Below, piece after piece: positions 14,763 through 57,294 of a stretch of 64,000 nt of DNA. The notes beneath the pieces were generated by a model that worked only from the letters and a program-made list of their open reading frames with translations, had not been told where the DNA came from and ran no database searches. Position numbers and translations under genes: made by a program. The stretch is from contig NZ_CP054698.1 in NCBI RefSeq assembly GCF_014023275.1, positions 6,719,001 through 6,783,000 on the forward strand. Direction: 5' to 3'. This stretch comes from Nostoc edaphicum CCNP1411 (GTDB lineage: Bacteria; Cyanobacteriota; Cyanobacteriia; Cyanobacteriales; Nostocaceae). How positions within the stretch are numbered: the stretch's first letter is position 1; each line of letters starts with the position of its first letter.

Positions 14763-14778
14763 TTGATCCCTGATGATG

Positions 14779-19018: not shown

Positions 19019-19028
19019 ATATTTATAT
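19019..19028. repeat. Right copy of the 10-bp target-site duplication
   Basis: ATATTTATAT, identical to 18379-18388. Confidence 0.9.
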
Positions 19029-19048
19029 ATCGAATTAGGTTCTGGGGA

Positions 19049-19171
19049 CTAGTGGTTTATCGCATTAAATATCATGAGTTTGTAGTAAGCACTTCAGTGC
19101 TTAAAAATCCAGGACTAAAGTCCTTACTACGAACTTATTCATCCCTCGTAACTAATGCGATAGACCACTAG
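19049..19171. mobile_element. 123-bp MITE-like element
   Basis: The ends are 19-bp inverted repeats with one mismatch (CTAGTGGTTTATCGCATTA at 19049-19067; complement at 19153-19171). The interior is another imperfect palindrome built from GTAGTAAG...CTTACTAC arms, giving a long cruciform. It has no coding capacity. It lies 30 bases from the ISAs1-type remnant, so this spot has been hit twice. Confidence 0.7.
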
Positions 19172-19235
19172 GAACTGGGGATTAGACACTAGAGAAGAGA
19201 ATAACCAATGCCCAATGCCCCATCTCTTTTAAAAA

Positions 19236-21293
19236 TCATCCCCTATTTTGACTTTTCTCGACTTGCTGCAATAAATGCTCTACACTTTCCGCTGGTGCAA
19301 GACACTTCAAACCTTGGCAAACTAACCCCACGCTTCCCTCTGGTAAATCAGATGTGATGGCAAACACAGCCACCGGCAGAAACTTGGGGATCAAAGAGTT
19401 TATTTGCTCAGTGGTGCTGCGAATCAAAGTAGAGTTACGATACCAATCCAAAGCTGTAAACAAGCTGGGACAAGCTTGAGGAGCGCGATGCATTACACTC
19501 TTAAAAGCTTTCAAACCAAGTTCCGCTAAATCTAAATAATCTAGATTATCAGTGAGTAGGGTGAGACGGACAAGATTAGCGATCGCAATTCCATTAGCTG
19601 ATGGTGTAGCATTATCCGCGTAACTGCGCTCTCTGACAATTAAATCTTGACTAGAATCGCTTGATGTGTTATAATAACCCCCTAACTCTACACTCCAGAG
19701 AAATTCGTTAAATTCATCTTGGATAGCGATCGCACTTTCTAACCATTGCTTCTGCTCAGGGTTGGAAGCTTGTAAATCTAGCAGAGCTTTAATAAACAAA
19801 GCATAATCTTCAGACTGAGCTAAAACGGTCGCTTCTCCTTGATAGTTAAGTCTCTGGAAACGCCCATCTACAAACTGATTTTCCAAGATAAAATTCGCGG
19901 CTCGTGCTGCTAATTCTAGATACAACGGTTGTCGGAACACTCCACCAGCCCTAGCCAGCCCAGAAATCATCAAGCTATTCCAGGCGACAATCATCTTCGT
20001 ATCTGTCACCGAGGGAATGCGACCTGTCCAGTTAGTGGTTTTCGCTTCCTGGTTGTTACGAGCTGGGGGAAAAGTTTCTAGTGACTCAGAACTAACGCCA
20101 TAACGAACTGTAAACAGCTTTTTCAGTGCCGCTTCCAGTGTTGCACTCAGTTGACCTGTATGGCGTCTTTGCAAAACATTACGTCCTTCAAAGTTACCGT
20201 TAGGCGTCACTGTAAACTGCTGTTCTAATTCCGTTAATTCTTCAGGCGTTAATAGTTGTTGTAGTTCGCTGTAACTCCAGACATAAAAAGTTCCTTCTTC
20301 TGGTTCTACCGCCGTGGGTTCAGTGAAGCTGTCGGCATCTTGAGCAGCATAGAAGTAACCTTCAGGCGCGGTCATTTCCCGCTTCAGCCATTGTACAGTA
20401 CCAGCAACCGCCCTCTCAAAAGCTGGCTCTTGTACTCCCGTACTCCACAAAGAAGCTAAATACTCGACAATCTGTCCATTGTCGTAGAGCATCTTTTCAA
20501 AGTGGGGAACTGTCCAAGTCGGGTCAACAGTATAGCGATGAAAACCACCGGCTACATGGTCATAAATGCCTCCCAGCGCTAAGTCTAGTCCCCGTTGGGT
20601 ACAAACTTGCTTGCCATCATAGCGAGATTCAAAATTAAATCGATTTCCCCGCAGTGCTAATTCTGTATAGGGAATCATCGGAAAACTATTACCGGATTGA
20701 CTAGGGGCAATTACACCCGTACTGGTTTCCCAACCTTGGCGGAGTAATTCATGGTCTTCAAACTCCGCTGTTGTATCGTCTTGCAACACCGCAGACGTGA
20801 GCAGAGACTCAATAATTAAGGCTTTGCGTTGCTGTAAATCTTCTTTTTCTGTATCGTAATAACGGCGAAGGGCTTGCAACACCTGTAAAAATCCTGGACG
20901 ACCATAACGCGGGTCTACAGGGAAATAAGTACCAGCGTAAAACGGCACTAAATCTTCTGGGGAAAGAAAAATATTTAAAGGCCAACCCCCTTGACCGCTC
21001 ATCATCTGCAAAGCTTGCATATAGATGCTATCAAGGTCAGGTCTTTCTTCCCTGTCTACTTTGATGGGAAGATAATTGGTATTCATGTAGTCAGCGATCG
21101 CAATATCAGAAAAAGCCTCGCCTTCCATGACAGTACACCAGTGGCAACTAGAGTAGCCAATGGAGAGAAAAATCGGTTTATTTTGCGCCCTTGCAGTTGC
21201 AAGCGCTTCGTCACACCAAGGCCACCAATCAATGGGGTTTTCGGCGTGTTTGCGGAGATAGAGGCTCTTAGCTTCAGCAAGGCGATTAGTCAT
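19236..21293 (-). CDS. DUF255 thioredoxin-domain protein (YyaL / spermatogenesis-associated protein 20 family)
   Basis: From the ATG at 21293 the protein is 685 residues. The N-terminal ~160 residues are the DUF255 thioredoxin-like domain with [24 protein letters not shown] and the conserved CHWC motif ([14 protein letters not shown]). The rest has the (alpha/alpha)6-barrel character of the family, with [20 protein letters not shown] and [13 protein letters not shown]. The biochemical role of these soluble proteins is not established; a redox role and a cellobiose-epimerase-like barrel have been proposed. It stands alone. Confidence 0.9.
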
Positions 21294-21519
21294 GTTCAAA
21301 TGCAAGTAGTTGCCTTCTTTGCTCAGTCTATCCTGTTCCCAGGATTGTTAGCCGAGACGGCTATGTACATAAGCAAGAAACCCTACGCGCAAATTACCCC
21401 TTGGGTAGGAGGTAGCAATGCATCTTTTTGATATCGCCTAAATAAGTTGGTGTAAAAAATTATATGACTAGGTTTATTTACACTGACTTACTTACACCTG
21501 TGCAACTTATGAAACATTG

Positions 21520-21675
21520 TTATTGAAAAGATCGCAATAGCAAGCTAACAATATTTGGTGGCGTTTCTCGTATAGGTGATGCTGTTTTTGTCTGAATTAA
21601 AGTATTTGGGCTAAGTCCTGCTATCAGGTGGAGCAAGAAGGTGATGATGGCGGCTTGTATAAGTTTTTCCAGCAT
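21520..21675 (-). CDS. Hypothetical 51-residue membrane-type peptide
   Basis: From the ATG at 21675 the peptide starts with one hydrophobic helix (LIQAAIITFLLHLIAGLS) followed by a polar tail. A purine-rich AGAGAGAG sequence precedes the start. A single-span small protein is plausible, but nothing else supports it; an upstream ATG at 21708 is also possible. Confidence 0.3.
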   Translation of the reverse strand: MLEKLIQAAIITFLLHLIAGLSPNTLIQTKTASPIRETPPNIVSLLLRSFQ

Positions 21676-21907
21676 GGCACGTCTCTCTCTGAGTGGATAG
21701 CATTTCAAGTAGGACTGGTTATTCTAAATACACCTCGTACTATCGATTTACCGAATCTAACAAAAATAACTTGATAATTGCTGAGGGAAATTATAAAAAA
21801 ATGTTTAAAATGTTACTGAATATTTAATATAATTCCCTAAGCAAGTCGGATTTCGGTTATCGGTCTAATCACACACATCGCCAAGGTTGTGCAGCAAAGG
21901 CCGAAAC

Positions 21908-22006
21908 ATGAGATGGCGAGAGTTGGAGTTTTTTAATCAGTTCTTCCCTAAACCGGGATATTCTCTTAGACAGCTTTTAAGACTAAAAAGTGCCCTTAAA
22001 GGTTGA
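21908..22006 (+). CDS. Possible 32-residue basic small protein
   Basis: ATG to TGA encodes 32 residues starting MRWRELEFFNQFFPKPGYS, with a basic tail RQLLRLKSALKG. An AAGG ribosome-binding site sits seven bases before the ATG. The peptide is cationic and aromatic, without a membrane span. It is short enough to be chance. Confidence 0.25.
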   Translation: MRWRELEFFNQFFPKPGYSLRQLLRLKSALKG

Positions 22007-22154
22007 ATCTATTGCAAAATGTGCTTTTGCTCCCTTGTTTGATCAAGCAGAATACGAAAGATTTGCTTCTATCTAGCTGAGAACAGTAGAGATAAACCCC
22101 AGTTTCGTGCTGTCACCGATAAAATGTATTTAAAGTAGCCACAAACACGCTTCC

Positions 22155-22766
22155 ATGATTCCTATCGTTATTGAACAATCGGGTCGAGGTGAACGCGCCT
22201 TTGACATCTACTCACGGCTGTTACGTGAGCGCATCATCTTTTTGGGACAACAGGTTGACAACAACATTGCTAACTTGATTGTTGCCCAACTGCTGTATTT
22301 GGATGCTGAAGACCCGGAGAAAGACATTTATATGTACATCAATTCTCCCGGTGGTTCGGTGACGGCTGGTATGGGCATTTTTGACACTATGAAACACATT
22401 CGCCCTGATGTCTGTACAATTTGTACCGGATTGGCGGCGAGTATGGGCGCTTTCCTCCTCAGTGCAGGTGCTAAGGGTAAACGAATGAGTCTACCCCATT
22501 CTCGGATTATGATTCATCAACCTTTAGGGGGTGCTCAAGGACAGGCGACTGATATTGAAATTCAGGCGCGGGAAATTCTCTACCACAAGAAGCGGCTAAA
22601 CGACTATTTAGCTGAACATACAGGTCAACCAATTGAGCGGATTGCTGAAGATACTGAACGTGACTTTTTTATGTCGCCAGAAGAAGCCAGGGATTATGGC
22701 TTAATTGACCAAGTGATTGACCGTCACGCCGCTGGTAGCCGCCCAGCAGTTGCTGCTGTTAATTAA
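22155..22766 (+). CDS. clpP: ATP-dependent Clp protease proteolytic subunit
   Basis: A 203-residue serine protease subunit. The catalytic serine is in [11 protein letters not shown] (near residue 99), the histidine in [13 protein letters not shown] (near 124) and the aspartate in the [11 protein letters not shown] region (near 172). [12 protein letters not shown] forms the oxyanion loop. Fourteen subunits form the chamber that degrades proteins unfolded by ClpC or ClpX. Cyanobacteria have several clpP copies and this one has the full triad. No clpX or clpR lies next to it. A strong terminator follows. Confidence 0.95.
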
Positions 22767-22814
22767 TAATCACGATTAAATGGTGATTTACCACTTTTAA
22801 TTCCCTTAAACCCT

Positions 22815-22855
22815 AAAAATAACCCCTCTTCTAGTTATGAAGAGGGGTTATTTTT
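22815..22855 (+). terminator. Rho-independent terminator of clpP
   Basis: A perfect 16-bp inverted repeat (AAAAATAACCCCTCTT with its complement) around a 9-base loop ends in a T-run, 50 bases past the clpP stop. The A/T tails on both sides would let it work in both directions. Confidence 0.9.
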
Positions 22856-22920
22856 GAAATGGGTGGCCTGCTCAAGTACTTAATACCGATTTGAACAAAT
22901 GACAAATGACAAATGACTAA

Positions 22921-23808
22921 TCAAAATCCCGCTATTGGGTCTGGCTCAGATTGAAGGAATTTGAGGAATCCGTGTAATTCTTCTTCAGTTAGCAAAGTGC
23001 GCCCTCGCTTACCGTAAGTTTTAATCAGATGCTCCCGTCCCTGTTCTGGTGTCCAGCCTAGACGCTGAAGTTCGACATCTGTTTTAGCAATGACATCCGA
23101 TAAATCCACGGGTTCAGCTTTCTTCTTTCTCTTTCCTGTTCCTGAAGGGGTAGGGACATCCTCTTGAGGGCTGTAACTCCGGGGTGTAAATGGTGTGACA
23201 TTATTAGCAGAAATTGCTGGAAAGGTTTGATTTTCCACCTGGTTATCAAAGGTTATTTCCAATTTCTCAACTGGAGGATCAAATTCTAGCTCCCGAATGG
23301 GGGTAACAGGAAAGTTTTGATTTAAATCCTGGCTATAGGTATCGCTTGTTAGGGGTGCAGTATTGCTGTACTCGTACTGTTCGTTACTGCTTGTTACTAC
23401 TTCTGGTTTAATGTTCCGTCCTTTGGAAGGCGGTATAGATATTTCTTTGTCGTTACCTGCTGGCCACTGACTACTAACAAAATCTCCATCTTTTGCGGGA
23501 GAATAGGCAGCAGGCTCATTCAATCCACCTTTGGGGTTCAAGGGAGGGTTTTGTTGTACCGGGGAAATTGGACTTGAGGTAAATGCCACTGATTCTGGTG
23601 GCGCATTTGTAATACCCAAAACTATCAGCGCCCTAGTTCTGGCTTGGTCTTCTGCTGCTTCTACTGTTTCTGCCGCTGCCATACCCGTAGCACGGGTTAC
23701 GCCTTCAATTTGCACGCTTACCCGGACAATATATTTTCCTTGAAAAATCTGTACTAATTCAGAAATCAAACTGCCCTTGGGATACAAGCTCTGGAATTGA
23801 GCCAACAT
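22921..23808 (-). CDS. Conserved cyanobacterial-type hypothetical protein, two small domains joined by a disordered linker
   Basis: A 295-residue protein I do not recognise by name. Residues 1-70 form a compact alpha/beta segment (SELVQIFQGKYIVRVSVQIEGV... AAEDQARTRALIVLGI), reminiscent of small RNA- or DNA-binding folds. The middle 150 residues are proline-, serine- and asparagine-rich and look disordered. The C-terminal 60 residues are helical and basic (LQRLGWTPEQGREHLIKTYGKRGR). The two-ended architecture could suit nucleic acid binding, but this is a guess. The gene is convergent with clpP. Confidence 0.75.
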   Translation of the reverse strand: MLAQFQSLYPKGSLISELVQIFQGKYIVRVSVQIEGVTRATGMAAAETVEAAEDQARTRALIVLGITNAPPESVAFTSSPISPVQQNPPLNPKGGLNEPAAYSPAKDGDFVSSQWPAGNDKEISIPPSKGRNIKPEVVTSSNEQYEYSNTAPLTSDTYSQDLNQNFPVTPIRELEFDPPVEKLEITFDNQVENQTFPAISANNVTPFTPRSYSPQEDVPTPSGTGKRKKKAEPVDLSDVIAKTDVELQRLGWTPEQGREHLIKTYGKRGRTLLTEEELHGFLKFLQSEPDPIAGF

Positions 23809-23833
23809 AATACTGCTACCAATCTAAATCTTT

Positions 23834-23967
23834 TGGGGACTGGGGACTGGGGACTGGGGACTGGGGATTTGGGGATTGGGGACTGGGGACTGGGAAAGAA
23901 TTATTTTAATCCTAATCCCTAGTCTCTAATACTTAATCCCTAATCACCAATCCCTAATCCCCAGTCC
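23834..23967. repeat. GGGGACT tandem heptamer array with inverted counterpart
   Basis: About nine imperfect GGGGACT/GGGGATT units (23834-23893) are followed by AATCCCT/AATCCCC units on the same strand (23908-23967), nearly the reverse complement. The pair could form a long hairpin. Confidence 0.8.
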
Positions 23968-24870
23968 CTTTTAAAGTAATATTTTTGCTTTGCCTTGTGT
24001 CCCAATTGTAGCAGTAGCTCTTTTTTGACGAAAATTTTGGCTAGTGCTAACTTACCTGGGTAGTCTTGCCTGCAATGCTATACTGATGACCCAACTCATT
24101 ATCTAGAACTATTTTCTGGAAGTGCGCTCTAAATCTACAATAATGAAGATAAGGTTCGCCCTCACTGCTTATTAAGCTGCTCACCTAATTGTTACCGATT
24201 CTACATGTGGGACAATTGGGTTCACGGCAGTTCCTCCTAGTTAAAAATCAGAGTCTAATGGCGTAAAATTACCTTCACTCTAGACAATCAAACACCTGTA
24301 GTTTCCACGCCACTTGACGGCAGTTGCTCCACTTGGGGTGACCCCAAGACCGCACTGCCTCCTCCACTTGGGGTGACCCCAAGACCCTTCTGGTTTGATA
24401 GTCCCCCAGACGCTCGATAACTCGCTAACGCTGCGCTATCGATGGAAACGCCAAGACGGGGGCTGCCTCACCGCAGTGGCTCCCCTGCATAGCGCTTTTG
24501 GGCAGCATGGATTCTCTAAACCCAGCTTCTCAAAAACCCGTCGCGTAATTACCTAGCGGGGCTAAATTTGAATCAGGCGTGCAATCTTAAGTTTGGTTAG
24601 GTGAAGGGATTTAAACGCAGGCGAATTCTGAGAGCATCGTGCAGTGAGAAGTTCGTAGACGCCCAGAGTTGTGCGTGGGTCGGCTTCCTTTGCTCGGAAC
24701 TGCGGGAGTAGTTTCCCACTCTTGCTGGGTCGGGCTTCCTTTCCTTGGAACTTAGGAAGCCTTGCCTCTGGGCAATTCGTTTCCAATTTGTTTCTGTAAG
24801 CCGTGAGGGTATACAGAAAAGAACCAGATTAAACAAAAAATGATGTTTTGACCAAAGGTCGGTTCACTGC
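23968..24870. other. 900-bp intergenic region rich in short repeats
   Basis: No gene is convincing here. The stretch holds a 25-bp direct repeat (24327-24351 and 24362-24386), a CGATAACTCGCTAACGCTGCGCTATCG palindrome-like element near 24414-24440, and a GGCTTCCTTT...GGAACT duplicated segment at about 24680-24760. Short minus-strand reading frames at 24562-24836 overlap those repeats and look non-coding. Confidence 0.45.
24327..24386. repeat. 25-bp direct repeat containing a GGGGTGACCCC palindrome
   Basis: CTCCACTTGGGGTGACCCC followed by AAGACC occurs twice with a period of 35 bp. Each copy contains the self-complementary core CTTGGGGTGACCCCAAG. Confidence 0.8.
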
Positions 24871-27225
24871 ATGGAATTTTCAATCGCTACACTCCTTGCC
24901 AATTTCACCGATGATAAATTGGTAGCTCGGAAGGTTTTAGAAAAGAAACTTGGCTGTGAAGATGAAAAAAGTTTACAAAAACTTCACATTGCCTTAGATG
25001 TTCTTGAAAAAATCGGTATTTTAGTGAAGGAACGGGGCAAGTACCGCCGTATATCAGAAGACGGAATCATTGAGGCAAAACTCCGTTGTTCTAGTAAAGG
25101 CTTTTGCTTTGCTATTCAAGATGTGGAAGGAGCTGAGGATATTTACATCCGCGAAAGTCATCTGAGTAATGCTTGGAATGGCGATCGCGTTTTGGTTAGA
25201 GTTCTCAAGGAAGGCAGTCGCCGTCGCTCTCCCGAAGGGGAGGTGAAGCTGATTCTCGAACGTTCTAACCACACTTTACTGGCACGAATTAAGCAGGTGG
25301 AAACTGGTTTCCGAGCTGTGCCTTTAGATGATCGATTGCTGTTTGAACTCAAGATTCAACCTAATGAGGCAAAGCTGGAAGAAGCGATCGATCACCTGGT
25401 TCATGTCGAAGTTTTGCGTTACCCGTTGGCACAATATCCTCCCCTTGGTCGAGTGGTGCAAATTCTCGGCAGCGATGCCGAAGCTGCTGCTGATATAGAT
25501 TTAGTTACGTGCAAACACGACCTTTCCCGGACTTTTCCAGATAATGTCCTCGAAGCAGCTACCAGGTTGCCCAAAAAGCTGCTCAAAGCAGACCTAAAAA
25601 ATCGGCTAGATTTGCGTAATTTGTTTACTCTCACCATTGAAGGGGTAAATGGCGATACCAAAGTTATAGAAAACGCTTTTAGTTTAGAAAAAAACTTAGC
25701 CGGAAATTGGCTGTTGGGCGTTCATATCACTGATGTTTCCCACTATGTCCAACCTGACGAAGCTCTAGATAGAGAAGCTCTCAAACGGGGTAAATCAGTG
25801 TATCTGGGAGAATTAGTGCTGCCAATTTTGCCACCACTGGTGGCAGAACGCTGTTCTTTAGTACCTGGGAGCGATCGCTTAACCATCTCTTTTTTAATTA
25901 CCATTGATCCCCAATCGGGAGAAGTGCTGGAGTGGGAAATTCAGCCCAGCGTAATTAACGTAGAGACTGCACTGACTACAGAACAAGCTCAAGCAATTCT
26001 CACAGGTGAAGCTCAAGATAAATCATCACAGGTTTCCCAAATCCTGCAAGACCTCCAAGCCTTGCAAATAGCCGTCAAACAGGTACGGTTGAATCGTGGT
26101 AGCCTCCAGTTAAATCTGCCGCCTAGCCAAAACGCCTATTATGATGAGGGGATTTTAGGCGCTGTGGTGGTGAATGATTTACCAGTGCGATCGCTACTCA
26201 CGGAGTTAGTGCTGCTAGTTAACCAACTGTTCGCAACTCACTTAAATGCCCTTGGTGTTCCCGCTATCTGGCGAGTCCAAGGTACACCCGATGTTGAAGA
26301 TGTTCAGGAAATGCTGAAATTGGCAGTCAATTTAGGCGTTGACCTCACATTAGATGCAGAAGTCGATATCCAACCCTTAGATTATCAACATTTGACCACA
26401 GCTTTTGCCGAATCTCCTTCTGAGCAAGTTCTTACTTACTTATTACAAGATACACTTAAGCCGTCTGCGTACAGTACCACCAAAGGATCTCACTTTGGTC
26501 TAGCACTACCGCAATATGTCCACTTTAGCGCTCCCTTGCGGCGTTACCCAGATTTGCTGATGCAAAGAGTGTATTACACGCTACTCGAAAACGGACGCGA
26601 TCGCCGCAATACCCGTGTCAGAGAACGCGTTAACCTGCGTCACTCCTCCAGCCACGAGGAAATTAACTGGAACGTTTTACCCCCAGAATTGCAACAAGAA
26701 CTCCAAAGCGATTTAACTAGGGTAATTGTCCAAATCAACGACCGAGAAAAAGAAGTCCAAGAAGCTGAAGCTGATTTAGCTGGACTGCAAAAAGCCCAAC
26801 TGATGAAGCAACGCATCGGTCAGGTATTTCAAGGCGTGATTACCGGGGTTCAATCCTACGGTTTCTTTGTGGAAATTGAAGTACCAGCCGCCGAGGTAGA
26901 ATCCAGCAGTAATCCTGGTGTGCCTTTGAGGGTGGAAGGATTGGTACACGTCAGTTCTCTCAAAGATGATTGGTACGAATATCGCGCCAGACAACAGGCA
27001 CTCTTTGGGCGCAAAAATCGCGCTTCTTATAGATTAGGCGATCGCGTTGCTGTGCAAGTTAAAAGTGTCGATTACTACCGTCAACAAATTGATTTGGTAA
27101 CAGTCGGCAGCGATGGTGTCGCCAAAGGTTTGACTGGCAATGATTCTCGTGAGGAGCTTTCAGACCTCTACTTACCAAATGACATTGATCCTGATGACCT
27201 AGACCCTTACTCCGAGGATGAGTAA
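24871..27225 (+). CDS. RNB-domain (RNase II/R superfamily) protein with degenerate catalytic motif, Zam-like
   Basis: A 784-residue protein with an N-terminal winged-helix/cold-shock region, a central RNB domain (residues about 245-590) and a C-terminal S1 RNA-binding domain (about 650-760, GVITGVQSYGFFVEI). Outer RNB features are conserved (LLGVHITDVSHYV, the SAPLRRYPDLLMQR segment near residue 556). The motif that supplies four metal-binding aspartates in RNase R (GEDARDFDDA) reads GVNGDTKVIENAF here, so most or all catalytic aspartates are lost. Cyanobacteria encode a divergent RNB protein, Zam, linked to acetazolamide resistance, and this may be it. It may bind RNA without degrading it. 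ubiX follows after 16 bases, suggesting co-transcription. Confidence 0.85.
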   Translation: MEFSIATLLANFTDDKLVARKVLEKKLGCEDEKSLQKLHIALDVLEKIGILVKERGKYRRISEDGIIEAKLRCSSKGFCFAIQDVEGAEDIYIRESHLSNAWNGDRVLVRVLKEGSRRRSPEGEVKLILERSNHTLLARIKQVETGFRAVPLDDRLLFELKIQPNEAKLEEAIDHLVHVEVLRYPLAQYPPLGRVVQILGSDAEAAADIDLVTCKHDLSRTFPDNVLEAATRLPKKLLKADLKNRLDLRNLFTLTIEGVNGDTKVIENAFSLEKNLAGNWLLGVHITDVSHYVQPDEALDREALKRGKSVYLGELVLPILPPLVAERCSLVPGSDRLTISFLITIDPQSGEVLEWEIQPSVINVETALTTEQAQAILTGEAQDKSSQVSQILQDLQALQIAVKQVRLNRGSLQLNLPPSQNAYYDEGILGAVVVNDLPVRSLLTELVLLVNQLFATHLNALGVPAIWRVQGTPDVEDVQEMLKLAVNLGVDLTLDAEVDIQPLDYQHLTTAFAESPSEQVLTYLLQDTLKPSAYSTTKGSHFGLALPQYVHFSAPLRRYPDLLMQRVYYTLLENGRDRRNTRVRERVNLRHSSSHEEINWNVLPPELQQELQSDLTRVIVQINDREKEVQEAEADLAGLQKAQLMKQRIGQVFQGVITGVQSYGFFVEIEVPAAEVESSSNPGVPLRVEGLVHVSSLKDDWYEYRARQQALFGRKNRASYRLGDRVAVQVKSVDYYRQQIDLVTVGSDGVAKGLTGNDSREELSDLYLPNDIDPDDLDPYSEDE

Positions 27226-48352: not shown

Positions 48353-48622
48353 ATGAATATTTCTTTAACAACCGAGCTTGAGCAGTTCATTCAAGGTCAA
48401 GTTGCAAGCGGGAAGTACACCTCAAATGAGGAAGTGATTCTTGCTGGTATTAGGCTGTTAGAAGAACGGGAACGTATTTACAAGGGTCGGTTTGAGGAAC
48501 TGCAAAGAGAAATTGCGATCGGGGTTGAGCAACTCGATCGCGGAGAACGACTCGACGGTAGAGAAGTAATCGAGCAACTACGTCAAAAGAACCAAGCTTT
48601 GAGAAGGACTCAGGGGCAATAA
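48353..48622 (+). CDS. ParD-type antitoxin (ribbon-helix-helix)
   Basis: An 89-residue protein starting NISLTTELEQFIQGQVASGKYTSNEEVILAGIRLLEERE, the ribbon-helix-helix pattern of ParD/CC2985 antitoxins, followed by a helical toxin-binding tail (FEELQREIAIGVEQLDRGE). The stop overlaps the toxin start by one base (TAATG), a classical antitoxin-toxin coupling. Confidence 0.93.
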   Translation: MNISLTTELEQFIQGQVASGKYTSNEEVILAGIRLLEERERIYKGRFEELQREIAIGVEQLDRGERLDGREVIEQLRQKNQALRRTQGQ

Positions 48623-48927
48623 TGAGTTTATATTTTCTATCGCCTCAAGCTACCCAAGACTTACAAGAAATTAACGATTACCTGTTTGCTGGAAATCCAG
48701 ATTCCGCAGATAGGTTGCTCACACTCATTAATCAAAAGTTGGATACTTTGGCACAGTTTCCCAGTATGGGACGCAGACGGGATGAACTTTTAACTGCGTT
48801 GCGAAGCTTTCCAGTTGATGATTATTTGATATTTTATCGCCCCATTACAGAGGGGATTGAAGTTGTGCGAATAGTGAGTGGCTATCGTGATTTAGAGACG
48901 CTGTTTTTAGATGATGATTCACGGTAA
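48622..48927 (+). CDS. ParE-type toxin
   Basis: A 101-residue RelE/ParE-fold protein: LSPQATQDLQEINDYLFAGNPDSADRLL, PSMGRRRDELLTALRSFPVDDYLIFYRP, and a final IEVVRIVSGYRDLETLF, all characteristic of ParE. It is likely a gyrase inhibitor neutralised by the preceding antitoxin. It converges with the Zorya-like operon, ending 7 bases from the ZorC-like stop, exactly where a zorD gene would be expected in a complete type I operon. Confidence 0.93.
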   Translation: MSLYFLSPQATQDLQEINDYLFAGNPDSADRLLTLINQKLDTLAQFPSMGRRRDELLTALRSFPVDDYLIFYRPITEGIEVVRIVSGYRDLETLFLDDDSR

Positions 48928-48933
48928 TAATTT

Positions 48934-50343
48934 TTAGTCTATTAGAAAACAAATCTTGTTACAGTAAGCTTTAGCTTCCCTTTCTAGACGTTCAATCTCT
49001 CTTTGCCACCGCTCAAGCCTGTTTTCTCGCTGTTGTAAATTATCTGCTGTAGGGTTTCCAGAAGGGTGGGTATCTGGATTAGGCAAAATTCCATTATTTG
49101 CAAGCCAGATGCGGGAAAATACCTGCCAAAGAAATTCATGATCGTGCTTATCACCACCCAGACAGCGAATCTGTTTGACTGAAAGTGTTGATTCACCGAA
49201 AAGGATTTGCTGATTTCTAGGATTTTTAGGAAACAGGCGCGTCTCACTACCTCTTCCACGAAAGAATTCGACTACAAACCACTCACCAAAATCGAATATA
49301 CAAACCTCTGTTGGGTCGCTACCATCATCTTCTAGTAAATCAACATCACCTTGGATTTGATATCCTATGGCAATTTGTGATGTCTTAGGTAACAAGATGC
49401 GAAACCTTTCAAAACGATTACTATAATCAGCCCAAAAGTCTCTGCGTCTACATAGCCGATTTGACTCAAAGTCTTGTAAATCCAGCTTGTTCAATATGAG
49501 ATTTACTAACTTTTGGAAATCACCATAATTGATACCTCCAATCCACTCTCTAAGTCTTTGCCTTGCTGGATCTGAAAGTTTATACCAATTTTCACCATTT
49601 CTATAGTTATCTCTCAACCAATCAATTAGTAAAGAATGATTGCTTGCTATATCATTGGAAACATTAGTTAGCAAATGATTAACAGCTTTTATTTGCTGAC
49701 TCTCTGACATTTCATCCAAACAACTTAACAACCATTTTACTTGCTGCTGATTTGGAGAGCGGATTGTAGTAAAATAGGGGCTTATATCTTCTATAAATCT
49801 GCTGAATAATGGAATCCAAATAGGTAAATGTTCTTTGATTATGTTTAGTAATTCAGTTCGATTAATACGCTGTTCACAAGCAATTTTTGCTAATTCTCTA
49901 CCTGCTTGTTTATTGCAAAGCGCCCCGATAATTTGAACTGGTAGCAGGTGACTAACTAAGTTAGAATTAGCAAAGATATCAAAAGATTCAGCTAGAGACT
50001 TTGCTAACACCTGTTTTTGATGACCACTATAATAAAGAGCTAAACGCCACAATAGCTGATGTTGCAACCATGAGTTATAAATTGCTACTTTCCAGATAGC
50101 TGCTGATGTTTTCCCGGATCTGTCAATATTTTGCTGATCCCACTGTGCTTTAGCATGAATGCAGTAAACCCAGTCCAACTTACTTACTTTATCAGCTTTA
50201 CCCTGTTCAATAGTTTCCAATATTTTATCAACACTTGGTATTGATATTGTTGCATCTGGTAAGTTACTTGCAAGCTGAATAAGTTGATTAGGACTACACT
50301 TGAGAGTTTCAGGTAGGGAAGGAATAGAAAACTGATAATTCAA
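48934..50343 (-). CDS. zorC: ZorC-like EH-signature-domain protein
   Basis: A 469-residue protein with a largely helical N-terminal two thirds (HEAT-like or solenoid character) and a C-terminal domain like the EH-signature domain of ZorC: RFERFRILLPKTSQIAIGY, GEWFVVEFFRGRGSETRLF (the E), and LGGDKHDHEFLWQVFSRI (the H), ending in a basic helix. In type I Zorya, ZorC is a cytosolic DNA-binding component recruited after the ZorAB motor senses phage entry and works with the ZorD helicase-nuclease. It starts 13 bases after zorB on the same strand. No ZorD follows; the next gene is a convergent parE. It is somewhat shorter than typical ZorC. Confidence 0.75.
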   Translation of the reverse strand: MNYQFSIPSLPETLKCSPNQLIQLASNLPDATISIPSVDKILETIEQGKADKVSKLDWVYCIHAKAQWDQQNIDRSGKTSAAIWKVAIYNSWLQHQLLWRLALYYSGHQKQVLAKSLAESFDIFANSNLVSHLLPVQIIGALCNKQAGRELAKIACEQRINRTELLNIIKEHLPIWIPLFSRFIEDISPYFTTIRSPNQQQVKWLLSCLDEMSESQQIKAVNHLLTNVSNDIASNHSLLIDWLRDNYRNGENWYKLSDPARQRLREWIGGINYGDFQKLVNLILNKLDLQDFESNRLCRRRDFWADYSNRFERFRILLPKTSQIAIGYQIQGDVDLLEDDGSDPTEVCIFDFGEWFVVEFFRGRGSETRLFPKNPRNQQILFGESTLSVKQIRCLGGDKHDHEFLWQVFSRIWLANNGILPNPDTHPSGNPTADNLQQRENRLERWQREIERLEREAKAYCNKICFLID

Positions 50344-50356
50344 AGTTGTAGCTCCT

Positions 50357-51010
50357 TTAGAGAGAGGTTTTTACGATATCTTTTTTTAACTCATCACTGC
50401 GAAACTGAAATCGGAAAACTACCTTGCGATCGCCTGGATTATCAAGTTTCTTATCAGATTCAATTTCTCCCCGACCAGCAGCCAATATTTTCTGGCTTAA
50501 AGGTGCTTTGGTAGGGAAATTCATATCATAAAAAATGTAGTTGTACACTGATGATGATCGCAACAAGCTTAGTTGTAGATTAGTTTTATCGTCTCCATCT
50601 GAGCTAGTATGACCTTCTATAACTACGCGGCTAATTTCCTGCTCAAATTCTGATTTTGAGAAAATAACCCCACTGTAAACAGGAATAAAGCGGCGTAGGA
50701 AGGCTTTACCTTCTGGTTTAAGTTCTGTACTTCCCTTAGCAAAAAGAATTGATTCTTGGATACTGACATCCCCAGTTTCCGGGTTGACTTTGACATTTAT
50801 ATTGTTGCTTTTCATCTGTCCCACAACATTACCAATTACTACCCGTTTTGGTACATCCTTTTGTGCAAGCTGGAGTAGTGCAGTAATAAATAGCAAAGCA
50901 AAAAACATTAGTAAACCAGACATCAGATCGCCAATAGACAGATAGATACTAGAGTCATCATCCTCTATAGTCTCTGTATCAATTTCACTTCTGATAAAAT
51001 CATCCATCAT
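50357..51010 (-). CDS. zorB: ZorB-like MotB/OmpA-domain protein
   Basis: A 217-residue protein with the MotB plan: a short acidic N-terminus, one membrane helix beginning GDLMSGLLMFFALLFITALL with the likely ion-carrying aspartate at residue 28, and a C-terminal OmpA-type peptidoglycan-binding domain (FAKGSTELKPEGKAFLRR, VVIEGHTSSDGD, LSLLRSSSVYNYI). It should form the peptidoglycan-anchored dimer inside a ZorA pentamer. The ATG at 51010 (or 51007) overlaps the zorA stop, fitting translational coupling and stoichiometric production. Earlier ATGs would lie deep in zorA. Confidence 0.88.
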   Translation of the reverse strand: MMDDFIRSEIDTETIEDDDSSIYLSIGDLMSGLLMFFALLFITALLQLAQKDVPKRVVIGNVVGQMKSNNINVKVNPETGDVSIQESILFAKGSTELKPEGKAFLRRFIPVYSGVIFSKSEFEQEISRVVIEGHTSSDGDDKTNLQLSLLRSSSVYNYIFYDMNFPTKAPLSQKILAAGRGEIESDKKLDNPGDRKVVFRFQFRSDELKKDIVKTSL

Positions 51011-53519
51011 TGCTTCCACTATTACCAAATTGGCGGTTATCATGTGCAGCAACTAGAACTCTTGCTGTCTCTAGTAAATCTCCGCAAACTCTAGCCATAG
51101 AAGTATCTGCTTGTTGGAAAAAGCTTTCCTGTAAGTCAACAGTTCTTTGCATAGAACTTTCAAGGTGACTCTGCCAAGACTCAAGACTATTGTGAAATGT
51201 TTTATTCAAACTTATGTATGAATTATCTACTATTTGCACTTGCTGACCAATTCCGCTTGCAAGCTTTTCTAGTTGAATTAGTCGTTGTGCATCATTTAAT
51301 CCAGCCGCACTAACTAATTTGTTAATTTGTTCGACAGATGTCTGAATTTTAGTCATACTTTTGTCTACCTCTTGAGTCAATTCACTACGCCTTTGAGATT
51401 CTTCCCGAAAGACTTGATCAAGATTATTCACAATCCCCGATAATCCATCTCGTTGTTTGCCTAGAGTCTCCTCAAGTAAGTTGTTTTGCTGTTGAAAGAA
51501 TGTCTGTAAATTTGTTTGATATTCTTCCCTAAATCTTGTCAAATCGTCTTCTACTGTATGGCGAGTTGCTGTGAGTATTGCGTCGATATTTCCTAAAGTA
51601 GCCAGAAGATTATCTTTTGCATCATTCATCAATCCAGAAGCTTGATTACCCAATGTTTGTAGAGTATTAGTTTGCTCATGAAAGGTTTTATTTGCTTGGG
51701 TGAGAATTTGGATAATTCCAGTCTTAGTAGCTTGAAGCATCTGCTGTTCTACTGCTGCGCGTTCTTGTAGAGCTGTCTGAAGTTCCTCTCGAATTCCTCG
51801 GAAGGTAGCAGCAGCTTGCACTGCGCTTGCTTCAAAAGCACTTCGCTGGGCTGTCATTCCTTCGATACTCTGAACTACCGCTCGATTAATTTCGTGAGAT
51901 GTTTGTTGTATAACTCCCGTAGTTTCAGTTTGGAATTGACTCAAAGTTTGCCCCATATTGTTAGCAAATCCTTGAAGCATCTGCTGTTCAACTGTTGCGC
52001 GTTCTTGTAGCGCTGTTTGAAGTTCCTCTCGAATTCCCCGGAAGGTAGCAGCCGCTTGCACTGCACTTGCTTCAAAAGCACTTCTTTGGGCTGTCATTCC
52101 TTCGATACTCTGAACTACCGCTCGATTAATTTCGTGAGATGTTTGTTGTATAACTCCCGTAGTTTCAGTTTGGAATTGACTCAAAGTTTGCCCCATATTG
52201 TTAGCAAATCCTTGAAGCATCTGCTGTTCAACTGTTGCGCGTTCTTGTAGCGCTGTTTGAAGTTCCTCTCGAATTCCCCGGAAGGTAGCAGCCGCTTGCA
52301 CTGCACTTGCTTCAAAAGCACTTCTTTGGGCTGTCATTCCTTGGATACTTTGGTTTACGGCTCTATTAATTTCGTCGGCTGTTAGTTGTAAAACACCTTT
52401 TGTATCTGTTTGAAATTGATTGAGAGTGTCTCCCAAATTTTTAGCAAATCCTTGGAGTTCGACCAGAGTTTCTTTTTGAAAGTTCTGAATTGTCAAGATG
52501 GAACTTGCCAAACTTTGAGATATACCACCCAATTCTCTATGCAGACTCAGCACAGCTTCGGAAGCTTGTTGAGTTAACTCCGCACTTTTATCTAGCCGAT
52601 CTGCAATCGGCTCAAGTACCTGAATTCGCAAATCTTTGATGAGTTCTTCTAAAACTCTCTGTCCCTGATTTTCTTGAATTTCTCGGAGTTTTTTCTGTTC
52701 TTTGAATATTTCTCCCAAGGCTGGCTTAATCTGCTGACCTACAGCTTGACCTATAGCTTGGGCTGACAACTGATTTAAACCTGCGAATTGTTCTGCAATA
52801 CTCCTACCTACAGCTTGACCAATGCCTTCTGCATTTAGCTGCTTTAGTCCGGTCAAGTTTTTTGCTACAAGACTAAGTGCTTCAGCTACTTCACGGTTGT
52901 CGTTCTCTGCCGTTTTCAAATTTGCGATCGCCTTCAATTTCTGACGCAAACTATCGCGCCGTTTCTGCCTTAGCGAATCACACCCAAACAAAACTAAAGT
53001 AAACAAGCTACCAGAACCAAGCCCCATCAGGGAAGTGGAGAAAGCTGTTTTCATTCCTACCAGTAGCCCTTTACTGGCAGTCATCAGTTCTTTGGTATCT
53101 TCTGTAGATAAATTGATTCCTTGGAGTCCCTGTTGTATACCATAAAAGGTTCCTAAAACGCCAATGGCAGTACACAAGGTTGTCACGAAGCGTAGGGAAC
53201 TACGAGGTATGGGGTGGGCTAAGACAGATGGATACTTTATAAGTATGAAATTACCATCTTTTTGTCTAAATCTACTAGAGTCATCAGTTCCTAAATGATC
53301 TTTTAACCATTGGCGAACTTCGTTTGAAAGCTTTACATTTTTACCATTTTTCAAATTACTCAAAAATTTAATAGAGGCTCCAGTTGTGCCACACTCTGAG
53401 CGCCAATATTGCAATAATGTACAAAGCTCGACAATAATTGCGGCTATTAAGACAAAAGCAATTGCCCAATGAAAAGGTTCGTTATCCCAAATAATGTCCC
53501 AAACTTTTGCTATTTCCAC
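51000..53519 (-). CDS. zorA: ZorA-like MotA/TolQ/ExbB motor protein with long coiled-coil tail
   Basis: An 839-residue protein. The first ~210 residues form a MotA/ExbB-type ion-channel unit with three hydrophobic segments (HWAIAFVLIAAIIVELC; SLRFVTTLCTAIGVLGTFYGIQQGL; KTAFSTSLMGLGSGSLFTLVLFG). The remaining ~620 residues are glutamine- and alanine-rich coiled coil, as in ZorA whose cytoplasmic tail forms a long signal-transmitting tube. Residues about 357-597 consist of near-identical 80-residue repeats. With ZorB it would be an ion-driven envelope motor sensing phage entry. A chemotaxis MotA or a gliding-type ExbB is unlikely given the tail and the EH-signature partner. Confidence 0.88.
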   Translation of the reverse strand: MEIAKVWDIIWDNEPFHWAIAFVLIAAIIVELCTLLQYWRSECGTTGASIKFLSNLKNGKNVKLSNEVRQWLKDHLGTDDSSRFRQKDGNFILIKYPSVLAHPIPRSSLRFVTTLCTAIGVLGTFYGIQQGLQGINLSTEDTKELMTASKGLLVGMKTAFSTSLMGLGSGSLFTLVLFGCDSLRQKRRDSLRQKLKAIANLKTAENDNREVAEALSLVAKNLTGLKQLNAEGIGQAVGRSIAEQFAGLNQLSAQAIGQAVGQQIKPALGEIFKEQKKLREIQENQGQRVLEELIKDLRIQVLEPIADRLDKSAELTQQASEAVLSLHRELGGISQSLASSILTIQNFQKETLVELQGFAKNLGDTLNQFQTDTKGVLQLTADEINRAVNQSIQGMTAQRSAFEASAVQAAATFRGIREELQTALQERATVEQQMLQGFANNMGQTLSQFQTETTGVIQQTSHEINRAVVQSIEGMTAQRSAFEASAVQAAATFRGIREELQTALQERATVEQQMLQGFANNMGQTLSQFQTETTGVIQQTSHEINRAVVQSIEGMTAQRSAFEASAVQAAATFRGIREELQTALQERAAVEQQMLQATKTGIIQILTQANKTFHEQTNTLQTLGNQASGLMNDAKDNLLATLGNIDAILTATRHTVEDDLTRFREEYQTNLQTFFQQQNNLLEETLGKQRDGLSGIVNNLDQVFREESQRRSELTQEVDKSMTKIQTSVEQINKLVSAAGLNDAQRLIQLEKLASGIGQQVQIVDNSYISLNKTFHNSLESWQSHLESSMQRTVDLQESFFQQADTSMARVCGDLLETARVLVAAHDNRQFGNSGSNDG
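51730..52449. repeat. 240-bp tandem repeats inside the ZorA-like tail
   Basis: Three copies of a 240-bp unit (80 codons) lie end to end. The overlap between successive units is nearly perfect over roughly 51800-52200 versus 52040-52440, while the outer edges diverge. Each encodes a block such as FANNMGQTLSQFQTETTGVI followed by AQRSAFEASAVQAAATFRGI. Confidence 0.95.
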
Positions 53520-53544
53520 ACTGCACCCCTCTTGTTTCTCTTGG

Positions 53545-53892
53545 TTATATCTTTTTGAATTTATCTAATTCTTTATCCGCAAAAACTTCTTGAGCTATCC
53601 GCATTGGGAGATGTTCTGCATATAGGCGTTCTCCTATAGGTTCTCGGAGACGTAAGCTATAAAGTGGTTCACCTTCTGATTCTTTATCCTCAATTAAATA
53701 AACCTGTTCTGGTGCATAGCTTCGCAACAAACGCACCTGCAAACAGGTTTTTAAATCCCGTGAAGAAATAGATAGGGGTGAATCTTGTCCAAATAATTCA
53801 CAAGCCACTTTCCAAGCGTGGTTAACCGCCACAATTTCTTTAACCAATTTCTCCACCGAGGGGTAAAGTAGTTTTGCGGTTTCACTAATCAA
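53545..53892 (-). CDS. Unknown 115-residue protein heading the Zorya-like operon
   Basis: A 115-residue acidic/basic mixed soluble protein that I do not recognise. It starts MISETAKLLYPSVEKLVKE (helical) and contains a beta-rich middle (RSYAPEQVYLIEDKESEGEPLYSLRLRE) and a helical end (IAQEVFADKELDKFKK). It ends 25 bases before the zorA start on the same strand, so it is almost certainly co-transcribed. It is not a standard Zorya component. It may be an accessory or regulatory subunit, or an unrelated gene sharing the promoter. Confidence 0.75.
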   Translation of the reverse strand: MISETAKLLYPSVEKLVKEIVAVNHAWKVACELFGQDSPLSISSRDLKTCLQVRLLRSYAPEQVYLIEDKESEGEPLYSLRLREPIGERLYAEHLPMRIAQEVFADKELDKFKKI

Positions 53893-54183
53893 TATTTTTG
53901 ACCTACCTGCTTGAGCTTCAATAGGTCTATAATTCCCAAAATGGGAACTTTTATTTAACTTTTATTAGTAAATCTATTTTGATAAAAGTAGTTTTTGATA
54001 CTAAACCACTCTTTGGGCGTTGAAAAAATGTAGAGTGTGTTATTGCTGTTACTGTGTTAACGTAACCAAAAACCTGAATAAGTACACACACAAACAAGTC
54101 ACCAGCTTTATCCCAATACGCTTGAGATAAGCCAGAAACCCCTCATGTAGAGACGCGATTTATCGCGTCTAAAAACTGACACG

Positions 54184-54252
54184 TTAGAGAGACGCGATAA
54201 ATCGCCGTCTCTACAAAGAATGTACTCGTCAATTATTCTTTGACAGACTACT
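54184..54252. repeat. Second copy of the 11183-type MITE (right part)
   Basis: This 69-bp segment has the same length as, and matches closely, 11211-11279: the GAGACGCGATAAATCGCCGT palindrome, CAATTATT and the terminal TTGACAGACTACT are shared. Confidence 0.8.
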
Positions 54253-54316
54253 CCGACTTGTCTGTACACCGTAGCCTTACTAACCAGAGGGATGTCTGAT
54301 AGGACAGGGTGAGGTT

Positions 54317-54362
54317 TTTACTGTAAAATCAAACAGCGATCGCTCTCCTAAATGCTGTCTTA
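54317..54362. repeat. 46-bp duplicate of an internal piece of the next gene
   Basis: It matches 54635-54680 at 44 of 46 positions, in the same orientation. It lies 120 bases beyond the stop codon of that gene and is not part of an open frame. Confidence 0.9.
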
Positions 54363-54480
54363 TAGTAAAAATTAGATAAAATGATGCGATCGCTACTATT
54401 ATCTTTTAGTAGCTCAACATTACCATTGCGAATTCAATACTTTAAGGGCAATTGAATTTACTACTACTCAACTAAAAATC

Positions 54481-54993
54481 TCACAAAATCTCTGCCAACT
54501 TTACCACCAGAGTATTTGCTAAATCCAAGAACCTGATATCATCAGTATCAATACTATTTCCTTCACCAGCTAATAAGCTTCTCACAGCAGATAACCTGTC
54601 ATCTACTTCAGAAATTCTCCAAGATTGTTCTAAGTTTACTGCGAAATCAAACAGCGATCGCTCTCCTAAATGCTGTCTTACCCTAACAGCTACACTATCA
54701 TTACTTACCAAAAACTCTTTAATAGTATCTAATTGAAAATTACCTAATATTTCTTCATGTCCCCACGTCTCTAGCCAGTCTCCATCGACATCTTCAACGT
54801 AAATATTGACAAAATCAACGCCGTAAGTTAGCCAGTTCTGCTGCATTTGTCGCGCTGTTGCTAAAGCTTCAGCAAATGTATCTACTTGATTGTTGCAGTG
54901 AGTTTCTCTTTTGTTAGCCATAAAAGCCGTAATTAGCACGTAAGTATATAGGCTAGAACACAAACCTTGAGTATCGAATTCCAGAAGTTTCAC
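54481..54993 (-). CDS. Hypothetical protein, second gene of a two-gene unit
   Basis: A 170-residue protein, soluble and acidic, that I do not recognise. It starts at a GTG whose first bases overlap the stop of the upstream gene (GTGA), showing translational coupling. Visible features are a helix with FAEALATARQMQQNWLTYG, a VNIYVEDVDGDWLETWG strand pair, and a helical C-terminus (DIRFLDLANTLVVKLAEIL). An internal ATG at 54921 would give a shorter form. It could be the immunity or partner subunit of the PD-(D/E)XK-like protein upstream; this is inference from coupling. Confidence 0.65.
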   Translation of the reverse strand: MKLLEFDTQGLCSSLYTYVLITAFMANKRETHCNNQVDTFAEALATARQMQQNWLTYGVDFVNIYVEDVDGDWLETWGHEEILGNFQLDTIKEFLVSNDSVAVRVRQHLGERSLFDFAVNLEQSWRISEVDDRLSAVRSLLAGEGNSIDTDDIRFLDLANTLVVKLAEIL

Positions 54994-55679
54994 GAAAATT
55001 TTAAATATTTGCCACCAGAAAGGTAATCACTGTTATACAGGGCCACGTTGACTAACTGGTTGACAAAATTAGCGTCCTTGGGATTGTAACTTAAGAACAG
55101 TCCTCTTTCTATTTCCCACGATCGCAGTGTATTTTGCCAAGCTTGGTACTTTTGATAATTAAGTTCTTCAGATACACTAGTTACTTGAATGCACAGTGGT
55201 TGATTGTTACGACTACTTACAATTAGGTCTGTTGCCATCGATAGGTCGGCGATATAACGCTGCCAAAAACTACCTTCTCGACTGACGACATCTTGGGCTA
55301 TTGATTTAATGATATCATCATCAACCTGATTAAATTCGCCTGCCATCAATTTTTGTTTCCAAATATAAAACTTGGAGTCACTTGCATTAATCCATCTAGG
55401 AAAGAGATAACCATACCAATATCTCTCAATGGGTGTCATTTGCTCGAACTTTGCTTTTTGTTCTTCCAAAGGTAAGGATTTGATGATCAGCCAAATGGTA
55501 GAATCCGTAATCACCTCTAAGAGAAAGGCAATGACAAAGGGTTTTGCAGTCAGAGAACCTGGCTTGATATTCTTTACCCAACGATTAATTTCATCTAATT
55601 TTTTCGCTAAATTATGATCTATCGAGGAGGCTTGCTCGATAAGGGACTTTAGCTTATCCTTAATCTCTTTTGCTTGCAA
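54990..55679 (-). CDS. Hypothetical protein with PD-(D/E)XK-like segment
   Basis: A 229-residue protein. The N-terminal ~100 residues are helical. Residues about 145-190 (YIADLSMATDLIVSSRNNQPLCIQVTSVSEEL, split by a turn) have the D...(strand)...xIQV layout of a restriction-endonuclease-like core in which Q replaces the usual E, followed by a helix and ERGLFLSYNPKDANFV. The final strands are hydrophobic. It may be a divergent nuclease or a fold-only relative. It is translationally coupled to the next gene and lies beside a Zorya-like operon, which suggests a defence cassette. Confidence 0.6.
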   Translation of the reverse strand: MQAKEIKDKLKSLIEQASSIDHNLAKKLDEINRWVKNIKPGSLTAKPFVIAFLLEVITDSTIWLIIKSLPLEEQKAKFEQMTPIERYWYGYLFPRWINASDSKFYIWKQKLMAGEFNQVDDDIIKSIAQDVVSREGSFWQRYIADLSMATDLIVSSRNNQPLCIQVTSVSEELNYQKYQAWQNTLRSWEIERGLFLSYNPKDANFVNQLVNVALYNSDYLSGGKYLKFS

Positions 55680-55770
55680 ACGATGCCCTACTTTCAGAAG
55701 ATAACTCTTTTTTACACACTTATAACTAAATCTTAACTTGAAAATGTACTTAATTAATTTCCTGATGTCA

Positions 55771-56619
55771 TTAAATATTCTCTAGGTTGATGCCCTGTGT
55801 ACGTAAAACCTCCCGTAGTCGAGCAATTTCTTGCTCTGCCTGTTGGGCGCGTCTTTCTGCCTGGTCAGCACGTAAACGTTCTTGTTCAGCCAATTCTTCT
55901 GATGATAGTATCAATTGATTTTCAGTAGTGAAGAATCTTAATTTACCTTCATAAACTCCCAAATAAAGTTCTAACTGCTGACTCCACAAACGTCCATCAG
56001 TGGTTACTTGGATTTCTTGATACTTACCATCAACTAAATGAAATCCCTGAAGTTCCATTGTTACAGGATCAAACCAGAAATAGTCTGGTGTACGGAAGGT
56101 ATCTTGATAAACTTGTTTTTTTAAACCTTTATCAACGGCTGTCGTTGAACTTGACAAAATTTCCACAATCAGGTTGGGATATTTGCCGTCTTCTTGCCAA
56201 ACTACCCAACTTTTACGGTCTTTTTTCTCGGTTCCCAAAACTACAAAAAAGTCTGGGCCGCGGAAATGTTCTGATTTTTTCTGGTTAGGACTGTAATGAA
56301 GAGTGCTGAGTTCCGAGTGCTGAGTGCTGAGTTAAAAACTGCCCACACTCTTGCGGGGCTTTTACCCAGTGCGAAAGTACTGAGTACTCAACTTCAAAAC
56401 TCAGCACTGAGTCTTGTAAATCGTCAAATTGCCAGAAGCATAGAAATCTTGCCTTTCTCGCCACCATAATTTAAGTATGCGAATCAGCAAATCGATTTCT
56501 TCTCGGTGTAGGTCACTTTCTAAGGGTAGTTCGCTACTCAGTATATCGCCAGGAGGAAAAATAACTTCCTCCTCTGAAATATTATCAGAGATAAATTCTA
56601 GGGTAGCAGGTTCAGACAT
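55771..56619 (-). pseudogene. Uma2-family gene interrupted by repeat DNA
   Basis: The N-terminal part (56619 to about 56412; FISDNISEEEVIFPPGDILSSELPLES, RQDFYASGNLTIY) and the C-terminal part (from about 56297; YSPNQKKSEHFRGPDFFVVLG, then YPNLIVEILSSSTTAVDKG, and an EQERLRADQAERRAQQAEQ coiled-coil tail) together make one normal Uma2 protein. They are separated by ~115 bases of GAGTGCT-type heptamers and related DNA containing in-frame stops. The C-terminal part could still be translated from an internal ATG at 56238. Confidence 0.85.
56297..56411. repeat. Heptamer-repeat insertion disrupting the Uma2 gene
   Basis: Both ends of the insert carry GAGTGCTGAGT-type units in inverted orientation (GTGCTGAGT at the low end, ACTCAGCAC at the high end) around a unique centre, giving a hairpin-forming insert of about 115 bp. 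Confidence 0.7.
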
Positions 56620-56649
56620 TAGCGATCGCCCCGCAATTCTACGTTTATT

Positions 56650-57294
56650 TTACTGAAAATTCGGTAACTTACAAATGGCTTTGAAAACTTGCAATAATTC
56701 AATTGCATCTGGAGATTGAATCAAATTTAATAATGGCATTAACTCATAAGTTGACTGGTTGTCATGTCTTAGATAAACAAATTGATAAAGCTGTCCATTA
56801 GTTACCAAACCCCAAACTGATGGTTGTTGATCTAAACTTTTAAAAGCATAAGTGAGTAATTGAGGTAAACCTTCAATCACATTGACCGAACTATTTTTTG
56901 TTTCAATCACTAGAACCCAAAATGGCGGCGCAATATTACTTTGAGGACTGTTGATTGCTAAAATATCCATCCGTCCGGTAATTCTTCTGTCTTCATCCTC
57001 AACTGCGATCGCAATGCTATCTTCCATTGTCAACCGAATCGGCACATCGTAAAATCCAGCTAGCCTCATTAATGGTGCGATCGTTAAGAATTTAACCAAC
57101 CCTTCAGAAATTTTCCCTGCGCTTAAATAACGATCAAAGTCGTTTCTGATTCGTAATAAATCCTGCTGTTCAAACTCAGAGAGTGGTTCTAGAGTTAAGA
57201 AGTCTGTAAATGCAGCATTTGAAAGCTTTTCTAGTTTAAGAAAGCGATGAACATCGTTGAGAGATAAACTGCTGGCTTCAACGGTAAGCGTCAT
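56650..57294 (-). CDS. Putative PD-(D/E)XK restriction-endonuclease-like protein
   Basis: A 214-residue protein. The N-terminal half is helical (LNDVHRFLKLEKLSNAAFTDF, RIRNDFDRYLSAGKISEGLVKF). The catalytic-type core follows: an E in the helix near residue 62 (ISEGLVKFL), RITGRMDILAI near residue 105 (the D) and FWVLVIETKN near residue 125 (ExK). The end, QLLTYAFKS... SVWGLVTNGQLYQFVYL, is the pattern found in HsdR N-terminal-like domains. It is probably a stand-alone nuclease of a type common in cyanobacteria; there are no methylase or specificity genes nearby. Confidence 0.8.
   Translation of the reverse strand: MTLTVEASSLSLNDVHRFLKLEKLSNAAFTDFLTLEPLSEFEQQDLLRIRNDFDRYLSAGKISEGLVKFLTIAPLMRLAGFYDVPIRLTMEDSIAIAVEDEDRRITGRMDILAINSPQSNIAPPFWVLVIETKNSSVNVIEGLPQLLTYAFKSLDQQPSVWGLVTNGQLYQFVYLRHDNQSTYELMPLLNLIQSPDAIELLQVFKAICKLPNFQ

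Follow-up and report, generated by a model that had tools for sequence, protein, structure and literature searches.

The zor operon in this window (the whole 64-kb stretch that was analysed) very probably represents a separate cyanobacterial subtype of Zorya, composed of p115, ZorA, ZorB and ZorC and devoid of ZorD. The features read directly from the sequences are a conserved four-gene unit, conserved motor residues, the absence of ZorD, the lack of the C-terminal segment of canonical ZorC and purifying selection, together with a ZorC fold that appears similar to the solved one. We use the subtype label since the tested core features of Zorya were found, whereas type I does not apply, there being no ZorD, and the operon region has no type II or type III subunit. 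The carrier genome has 8.3 Mb and the nearest named loci are from Nostoc. The features of the locus are as follows.

48353-48927, parD-parE toxin-antitoxin pair, tail to tail with zorC.
48934..50343, minus strand, zorC, EH_Signature protein without the C-terminal segment of canonical ZorC; PADLOC ZorC1 614 bits.
50357..51052, minus strand, zorB, MotB/OmpA-type subunit; PADLOC ZorB1 242 bits, OmpA PF00691 42.2 bits.
51000..53519, minus strand, zorA, MotA/ExbB-type motor subunit of 839 aa with a long coiled-coil tail; PADLOC ZorA1 1140 bits.
51731..52454, no strand assigned, tandem repeat in the zorA tail, in-frame, 240 bp (80 aa), three copies; TRF, 92% matches.
53545..53892, minus strand, p115, conserved fourth component of 115 aa; no named family in Pfam, PADLOC or NCBIfam.

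The earlier note had read zorA, zorB and zorC from the letters of the sequence. All three are present where it placed them, on one strand, and PADLOC and Pfam bear out their families. The search with the ZorA to ZorE profiles which the note had proposed returned the PADLOC scores listed above. A mismatch of the 48934-50343 product with the EH-signature profile had been named as a refutation; the protein passes Pfam PF15611 (EH_Signature) with 136 bits at a cut-off of 27.5. ZorA remains under the cut-off of Pfam MotA_ExbB (18.7 bits, cut-off 22.9), and the matches to the NCBIfam models ZorB1, ZorB2 and ZorA_2 are far under their cut-offs, as expected of a divergent group. The p115 gene ends 25 nt before zorA. 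The zorB reading frame is perhaps over-extended, with its true start at 51010, and the resulting 217-aa form is the open reading frame in a number of relatives. The convergent parE beside zorC is there as described, with a spacing of 6 bases (gene ends at 48927 and 48934) instead of 7. Of the loci compared, L003 and L004 alone have ParD-like open reading frames as well, and L023 alone has a ParE-like one. An Uma2 reading frame at 55771-56238 looks truncated: it encodes 155 aa and matches the second half of the profile only, and its counterpart in L018 has 242 aa.

Whole-genome searches with the ZorD profile PDLC00628 and a ZorD protein found no ZorD-like gene in the 64-kb window, and by PADLOC and Pfam none of the ten reading frames scanned there (48353-57294) is a ZorD, ZorE, ZorF or ZorG. 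The claim that no helicase gene lies within 15 kb therefore holds for ZorD-like helicases, the kind searched across the window. Neither in the window nor in the fetched zor loci was a ZorD helicase-nuclease (SNF2 plus Mrr_cat) encountered next to zorC with PDLC00628 or the whole ZorD protein. By profile, protein and neighbourhood comparison, zorD is also missing at the equivalent place in near and far relatives, so the second refutation named in the note, a zorD-like gene there in close relatives, failed as well. On the strength of the genome surveys we rejected a one-off deletion of zorD in this genome.

Could a nuclease be supplied in trans from an unlinked gene, for example an SNF2 helicase elsewhere in the genome? 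We consider this quite improbable. The ZorD protein query (1259 aa; SNF2 594-901, Helicase_C 924-1041, Mrr_cat 1116-1233) does find SNF2-type matches in 29 of 29 genomes, the strong ones in frames of about 1000-1600 aa, but the strong matches comprise the helicase part only, and none of the matches begins before position 566 or extends past 1128. PDLC00628 matches all 25 EH_Signature genomes, its strong matches spanning only about 429-1010 of 1171, yet it also matches 10 of 14 control genomes, none of which is matched by EH_Signature (0/14). Weak matches to its part from about 982 to 1143 are confined to three genomes (G354, G203, G039), where the frames of 161 aa contain a stop. Linkage is lacking as well: where zor genes and matches to the ZorD query share a contig, even the closest pair is some 65 kb apart (G197; coordinates compared by eye). 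We take the genome-wide matches to be general helicases.

A 949-aa helicase adjoins zorC in Nostoc LEGE 06077 (L012) and on a plasmid of Nostoc sp. HK-01 (L032), the only two loci where this was seen, and their ZorC proteins are nearly identical. We rejected it as a ZorD; the best match of the L032 copy is DpdE/DrmD, and it lies inside a DISARM/Druantia-like cluster (25 of 49 families listed). Downstream of zorC this plasmid encodes, at 13861-25386, a DpdE/DrmD-like helicase, a DrmMI-like methylase and a DruE-like helicase. When 145 of 168 neighbouring reading frames from 22 of 25 chosen loci were scanned with PADLOC, no ZorD appeared among the 25 of 75 families listed. The defence families PbeA, viperin, Cas6, methyltransferase and DpdE/DrmD are present among these neighbours, which speaks of presence and not of enrichment.

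Several genes had been proposed in the earlier note as substitutes for the missing effector. Of these, the 115-aa protein is the one that keeps company with zorABC. The gene at 54990 (p229), which had been suggested to be PD-(D/E)XK-like, is sparse and unmatched in Pfam, PADLOC and NCBIfam: it is found in 8 of 30 loci from named genomes and in 2 of 24 fetched survey loci (L057-L080, pieces included). The gene at 54481 (p170) is similarly rare (10 of 30 and 2 of 24 in the same two sets, pieces included). Since most loci lack them and they match no family, we rejected p229 and p170 as effectors. As the p229-bearing loci moreover have an ACS and/or TerC flank in common, both genes look like mere neighbours.

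The association of p115 with the zor genes is close. We found 128 homologues of p115. Among 386 genomes of the phylum EH_Signature occurs in 25 (24 above the cut-off) and the p115 profile in 24, each p115 copy having zor genes, or a remnant of them, as neighbours. Both are found together in 20 genomes (hypergeometric 4e-25 for 25 and 24 in 386, kinship ignored). The three genes zorA, zorB and zorC are present in 21 of the 25 EH_Signature genomes, some with broken frames, and p115 adjoins zorA or zorC within 284 nt in 20 of these 21, including one (G207) with the operon divided between two contig ends. In the remaining genome (G121) zorABC is present and no p115 was detected with the profile in six frames. 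The other four EH_Signature genomes have an orphan zorC (three, of one genus) or a zorC remnant (one). Conversely, four genomes contain p115 and no EH_Signature match: G022 and G305 with zorAB and a broken or short zorC, G382 with p115-zorA and a zorC remnant, and G155 with a deletion at which part of p115 and 114 bp of zorA are left side by side.

A set of 30 loci from named genomes, which may overlap with the survey in genomes, gives the same picture. Wherever the contig includes zorA and the DNA ahead of it, p115 is there too (23 of 23 loci); three others run into contig ends (L010, L014, L028) and four consist of a zorC piece only (L021, L027, L030 and L031, the last at a contig end). In most loci p115 precedes zorA. 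In five it follows zorC (L071, L072, L076, L079, L116), with a gap of 14-39 nt in four and of 97 nt in the fifth; in the ZorC tree a single clade unites the four of them whose ZorC is full-length, and the p115 tree requires two changes of the place of p115. With two profiles in six frames (best E 2.9) no p115 was found in four canonical type I loci, where zorD is present, or in two plasmid loci with ZorAB and HNH (L123, L124). As a positive control the six-frame search recovered p115 at E 1.5e-45 and 2.7e-49. The four flanking genes tested (6PGD, RlaP, AI-2E transporter, Iso_dh) vary between lineages, which helps to bound the unit.

According to the names attached to 120 of 128 and 120 of 350 matches listed, many of which are nameless, the p115 homologues are cyanobacterial save for one metagenome-assembled genome labelled Tatlockia. 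Viral contigs yielded nothing that could be confirmed as related to ZorC, ZorB or p115, and among plasmids cyanobacterial ZorC was found on a single one, from Nostoc. Three species of one genus (L073, L074, L078) carry a full-length orphan zorC with scanned neighbours of the housekeeping kind, and zorA, zorB and p115 are not found in the surrounding 20 kb.

Decayed copies of the locus were observed in L021, L027, L030, L080, L117/L128 and L119. The forms of decay comprise zorC pieces alone, loss of zorB and most of zorC, and deletion of zorABC with zorA and p115 pieces left. Such copies would fit the idea that the whole locus is the relic of a type I system that has lost ZorD and the C-terminus of ZorC. 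We regard this as very unlikely indeed, as the unit without ZorD is kept together with a fixed extra gene in many families of the phylum and is under purifying selection. Against relatives, dN/dS lies between 0.12 and 0.31 in six comparisons of p115, between 0.11 and 0.18 in five of zorB and between 0.22 and 0.32 in six of zorC; as judged from these 17 sequence comparisons (0.11-0.32), purifying selection on the three genes is shown.

What could p115 do? In an alignment of 57 sequences the residues N24, W27, K28, K48, Q52, R54, L56, L66, E75, H94, P96 and R98 are invariant. At most two of the 57 sequences match any one Pfam family (E 0.01 at best), and no PDB sequence matches at E 10. The structural model (pLDDT 95.0, pTM 0.86) has a helical hairpin (13-34, 39-59), three strands (64-69, 77-86, 89-96) and short helices, and has no significant match among the PDB folds listed. 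Judged by this model p115 is without a recognised catalytic or DNA-binding fold. Its resemblance to the helical hairpin of CP12 is structural only and inside the noise; kinship with CP12 was rejected, as 27 of 100 shuffles equal or surpass the profile comparison and 0 of 57 members match Pfam CP12. Nor did hhalign give any sign that p115 is a split-off piece of ZorC or ZorD, which is a weak test with single sequences as targets.

In one alternative p115 would take the place of ZorD: brought in by ZorC, it would itself act as the effector, as a small enzyme whose fold is not recognised. It is the near-constant partner of zorABC and the sole extra gene of the unit, and N24, K28, K48, Q52, R54, E75, H94 and R98 are polar as well as invariant. 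However, it has just 115 aa and matches no nuclease by sequence or fold, and we consider this role rather unlikely. The simplest reading of the sequence data is that p115 partners ZorC.

The motor subunits retain the Zorya core, that is, a long-tailed MotA/ExbB-type ZorA and a ZorB with a membrane aspartate and an OmpA-like domain. ZorA T117 and S163 are invariant in seven of seven aligned ZorA proteins, four of them canonical, and ZorB D42 in 16 of 16 and 7 of 7 sequences of two alignments; these are the presumed ion-path residues. The 80-aa repeat of the ZorA tail occurs in zero to three copies among 41 ZorA proteins, so that the tail length varies by whole units among close relatives. Canonical ZorC has about 560-606 aa including the C-terminal segment. 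A profile of this segment, built from four sequences and hence small and of limited reach, matches all four canonical ZorC, from which it was made, and none of the 48 cyanobacterial ZorC, that of the window included. In the ZorC tree the cyanobacterial (48 rows) and canonical (4) proteins are split by a branch with 100% SH-aLRT, the program warning of long branches and odd letter make-up. The modelled ZorC fold appears to resemble the solved ZorC; the VIA alignment with 8r68 has an rmsd of 9.9, and with Foldseek 8r68 is not among the best 50 matches and nothing is found at E 0.001.

The locus thus has in common with type I (ZorABCD) the order ZorA, ZorB, ZorC, the presumed ion-path residues, the probable ZorC fold and EH_Signature, but differs in lacking ZorD and the C-terminal segment of ZorC, in the added p115 and in the distance of its ZorC from the canonical ones. 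With type II (ZorABE) it shares the ZorAB core, but the ten window reading frames contain no HNH ZorE and an EH_Signature ZorC is present. The same core is found in type III (ZorABFG; DUF3348, DUF2894), as given in parts of PMC11890865 and PMC8565338, but ZorF and ZorG are absent from these ten frames. In all, the zorD-less unit in relatives, the EH_Signature ZorC and the p115 that accompanies zorABC support the suggestion of the earlier note that a distinct Zorya-like type may be present here.

For types I and II, parts of PMC11890865 describe a ZorA5B2 motor, a peptidoglycan-binding ZorB, a required ZorA tail and a recruited nuclease module; a passage of PMC12904381 summarises type I in like manner. 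Type II Zorya has been described in Synechococcus (in part of PMC10696648), so cyanobacteria may contain other Zorya types. In the part of the literature that was searched we found neither a ZorD-less cyanobacterial Zorya nor a fourth Zorya type described, and no paper joining Zorya and Nostoc.

We suggest that the putative defence would proceed in the following steps. ZorA5B2 would form an ion-driven motor in the inner membrane, and ZorB would detect the disturbance of peptidoglycan caused by the phage. The motion could then travel along the ZorA tail to soluble ZorC and p115, p115 being the binding partner that would complete ZorC. The ZorC-p115 pair would hold or block the incoming DNA, or bring a host nuclease to it, with no hand-over to a dedicated ZorD. 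This course from the motor via ZorC-p115 to the DNA is the most likely of several, and we put it forward tentatively. Subtype and ZorC-p115 mechanism taken together are our best joint explanation, one that we hold to be somewhat probable. Counted against it are the published deletion of ZorD from type I described below, the orphan ZorC genomes, G121 without p115, the broken and decayed loci, the p115 without recognised fold, the comparison with 8r68 (rmsd and Foldseek) and the warnings for the ZorC tree.

Alternatively, the ZorAB motor itself would be the effector: on infection it would let ions flow, which would depolarise the membrane and halt the cell, with ZorC and p115 as sensors or gates. 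The invariance of the presumed ion-path residues (ZorB D42, ZorA T117 and S163) is in line with this, and membrane depolarisation via ZorAB ion flow is an earlier proposal reported in a part of PMC8565338. However, PMC11890865 assigns the damage in types I and II to nuclease subunits, and we judge a motor effector improbable. For type I deprived of ZorD (ZorABC), the Fig. 2 legend of the same paper marks no significant protection, so it is not evident that a set lacking ZorD suffices. This deletion result points to a needed contribution from p115 or to a different way of working here; the unit may also need a host factor.

In current Zorya models the motor recruits a nuclease as the last step. 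A conserved ZorABC lineage without ZorD and with a near-constant small partner offers a direct way to study the role of the motor apart from the nuclease. With p115 as the fourth gene, such loci would be missed by finders based on ZorD. The missing DNA-cutting part and the constant presence of p115 suggest a separate Zorya type, which may stop phages by some other mechanism. It is even conceivable, at somewhat less than an even chance, that this is a nuclease-free Zorya in which p115 replaces ZorD as the true effector or recruiter of the effector; if true, a rotary membrane motor would defend the cell by a route new to types I to III.
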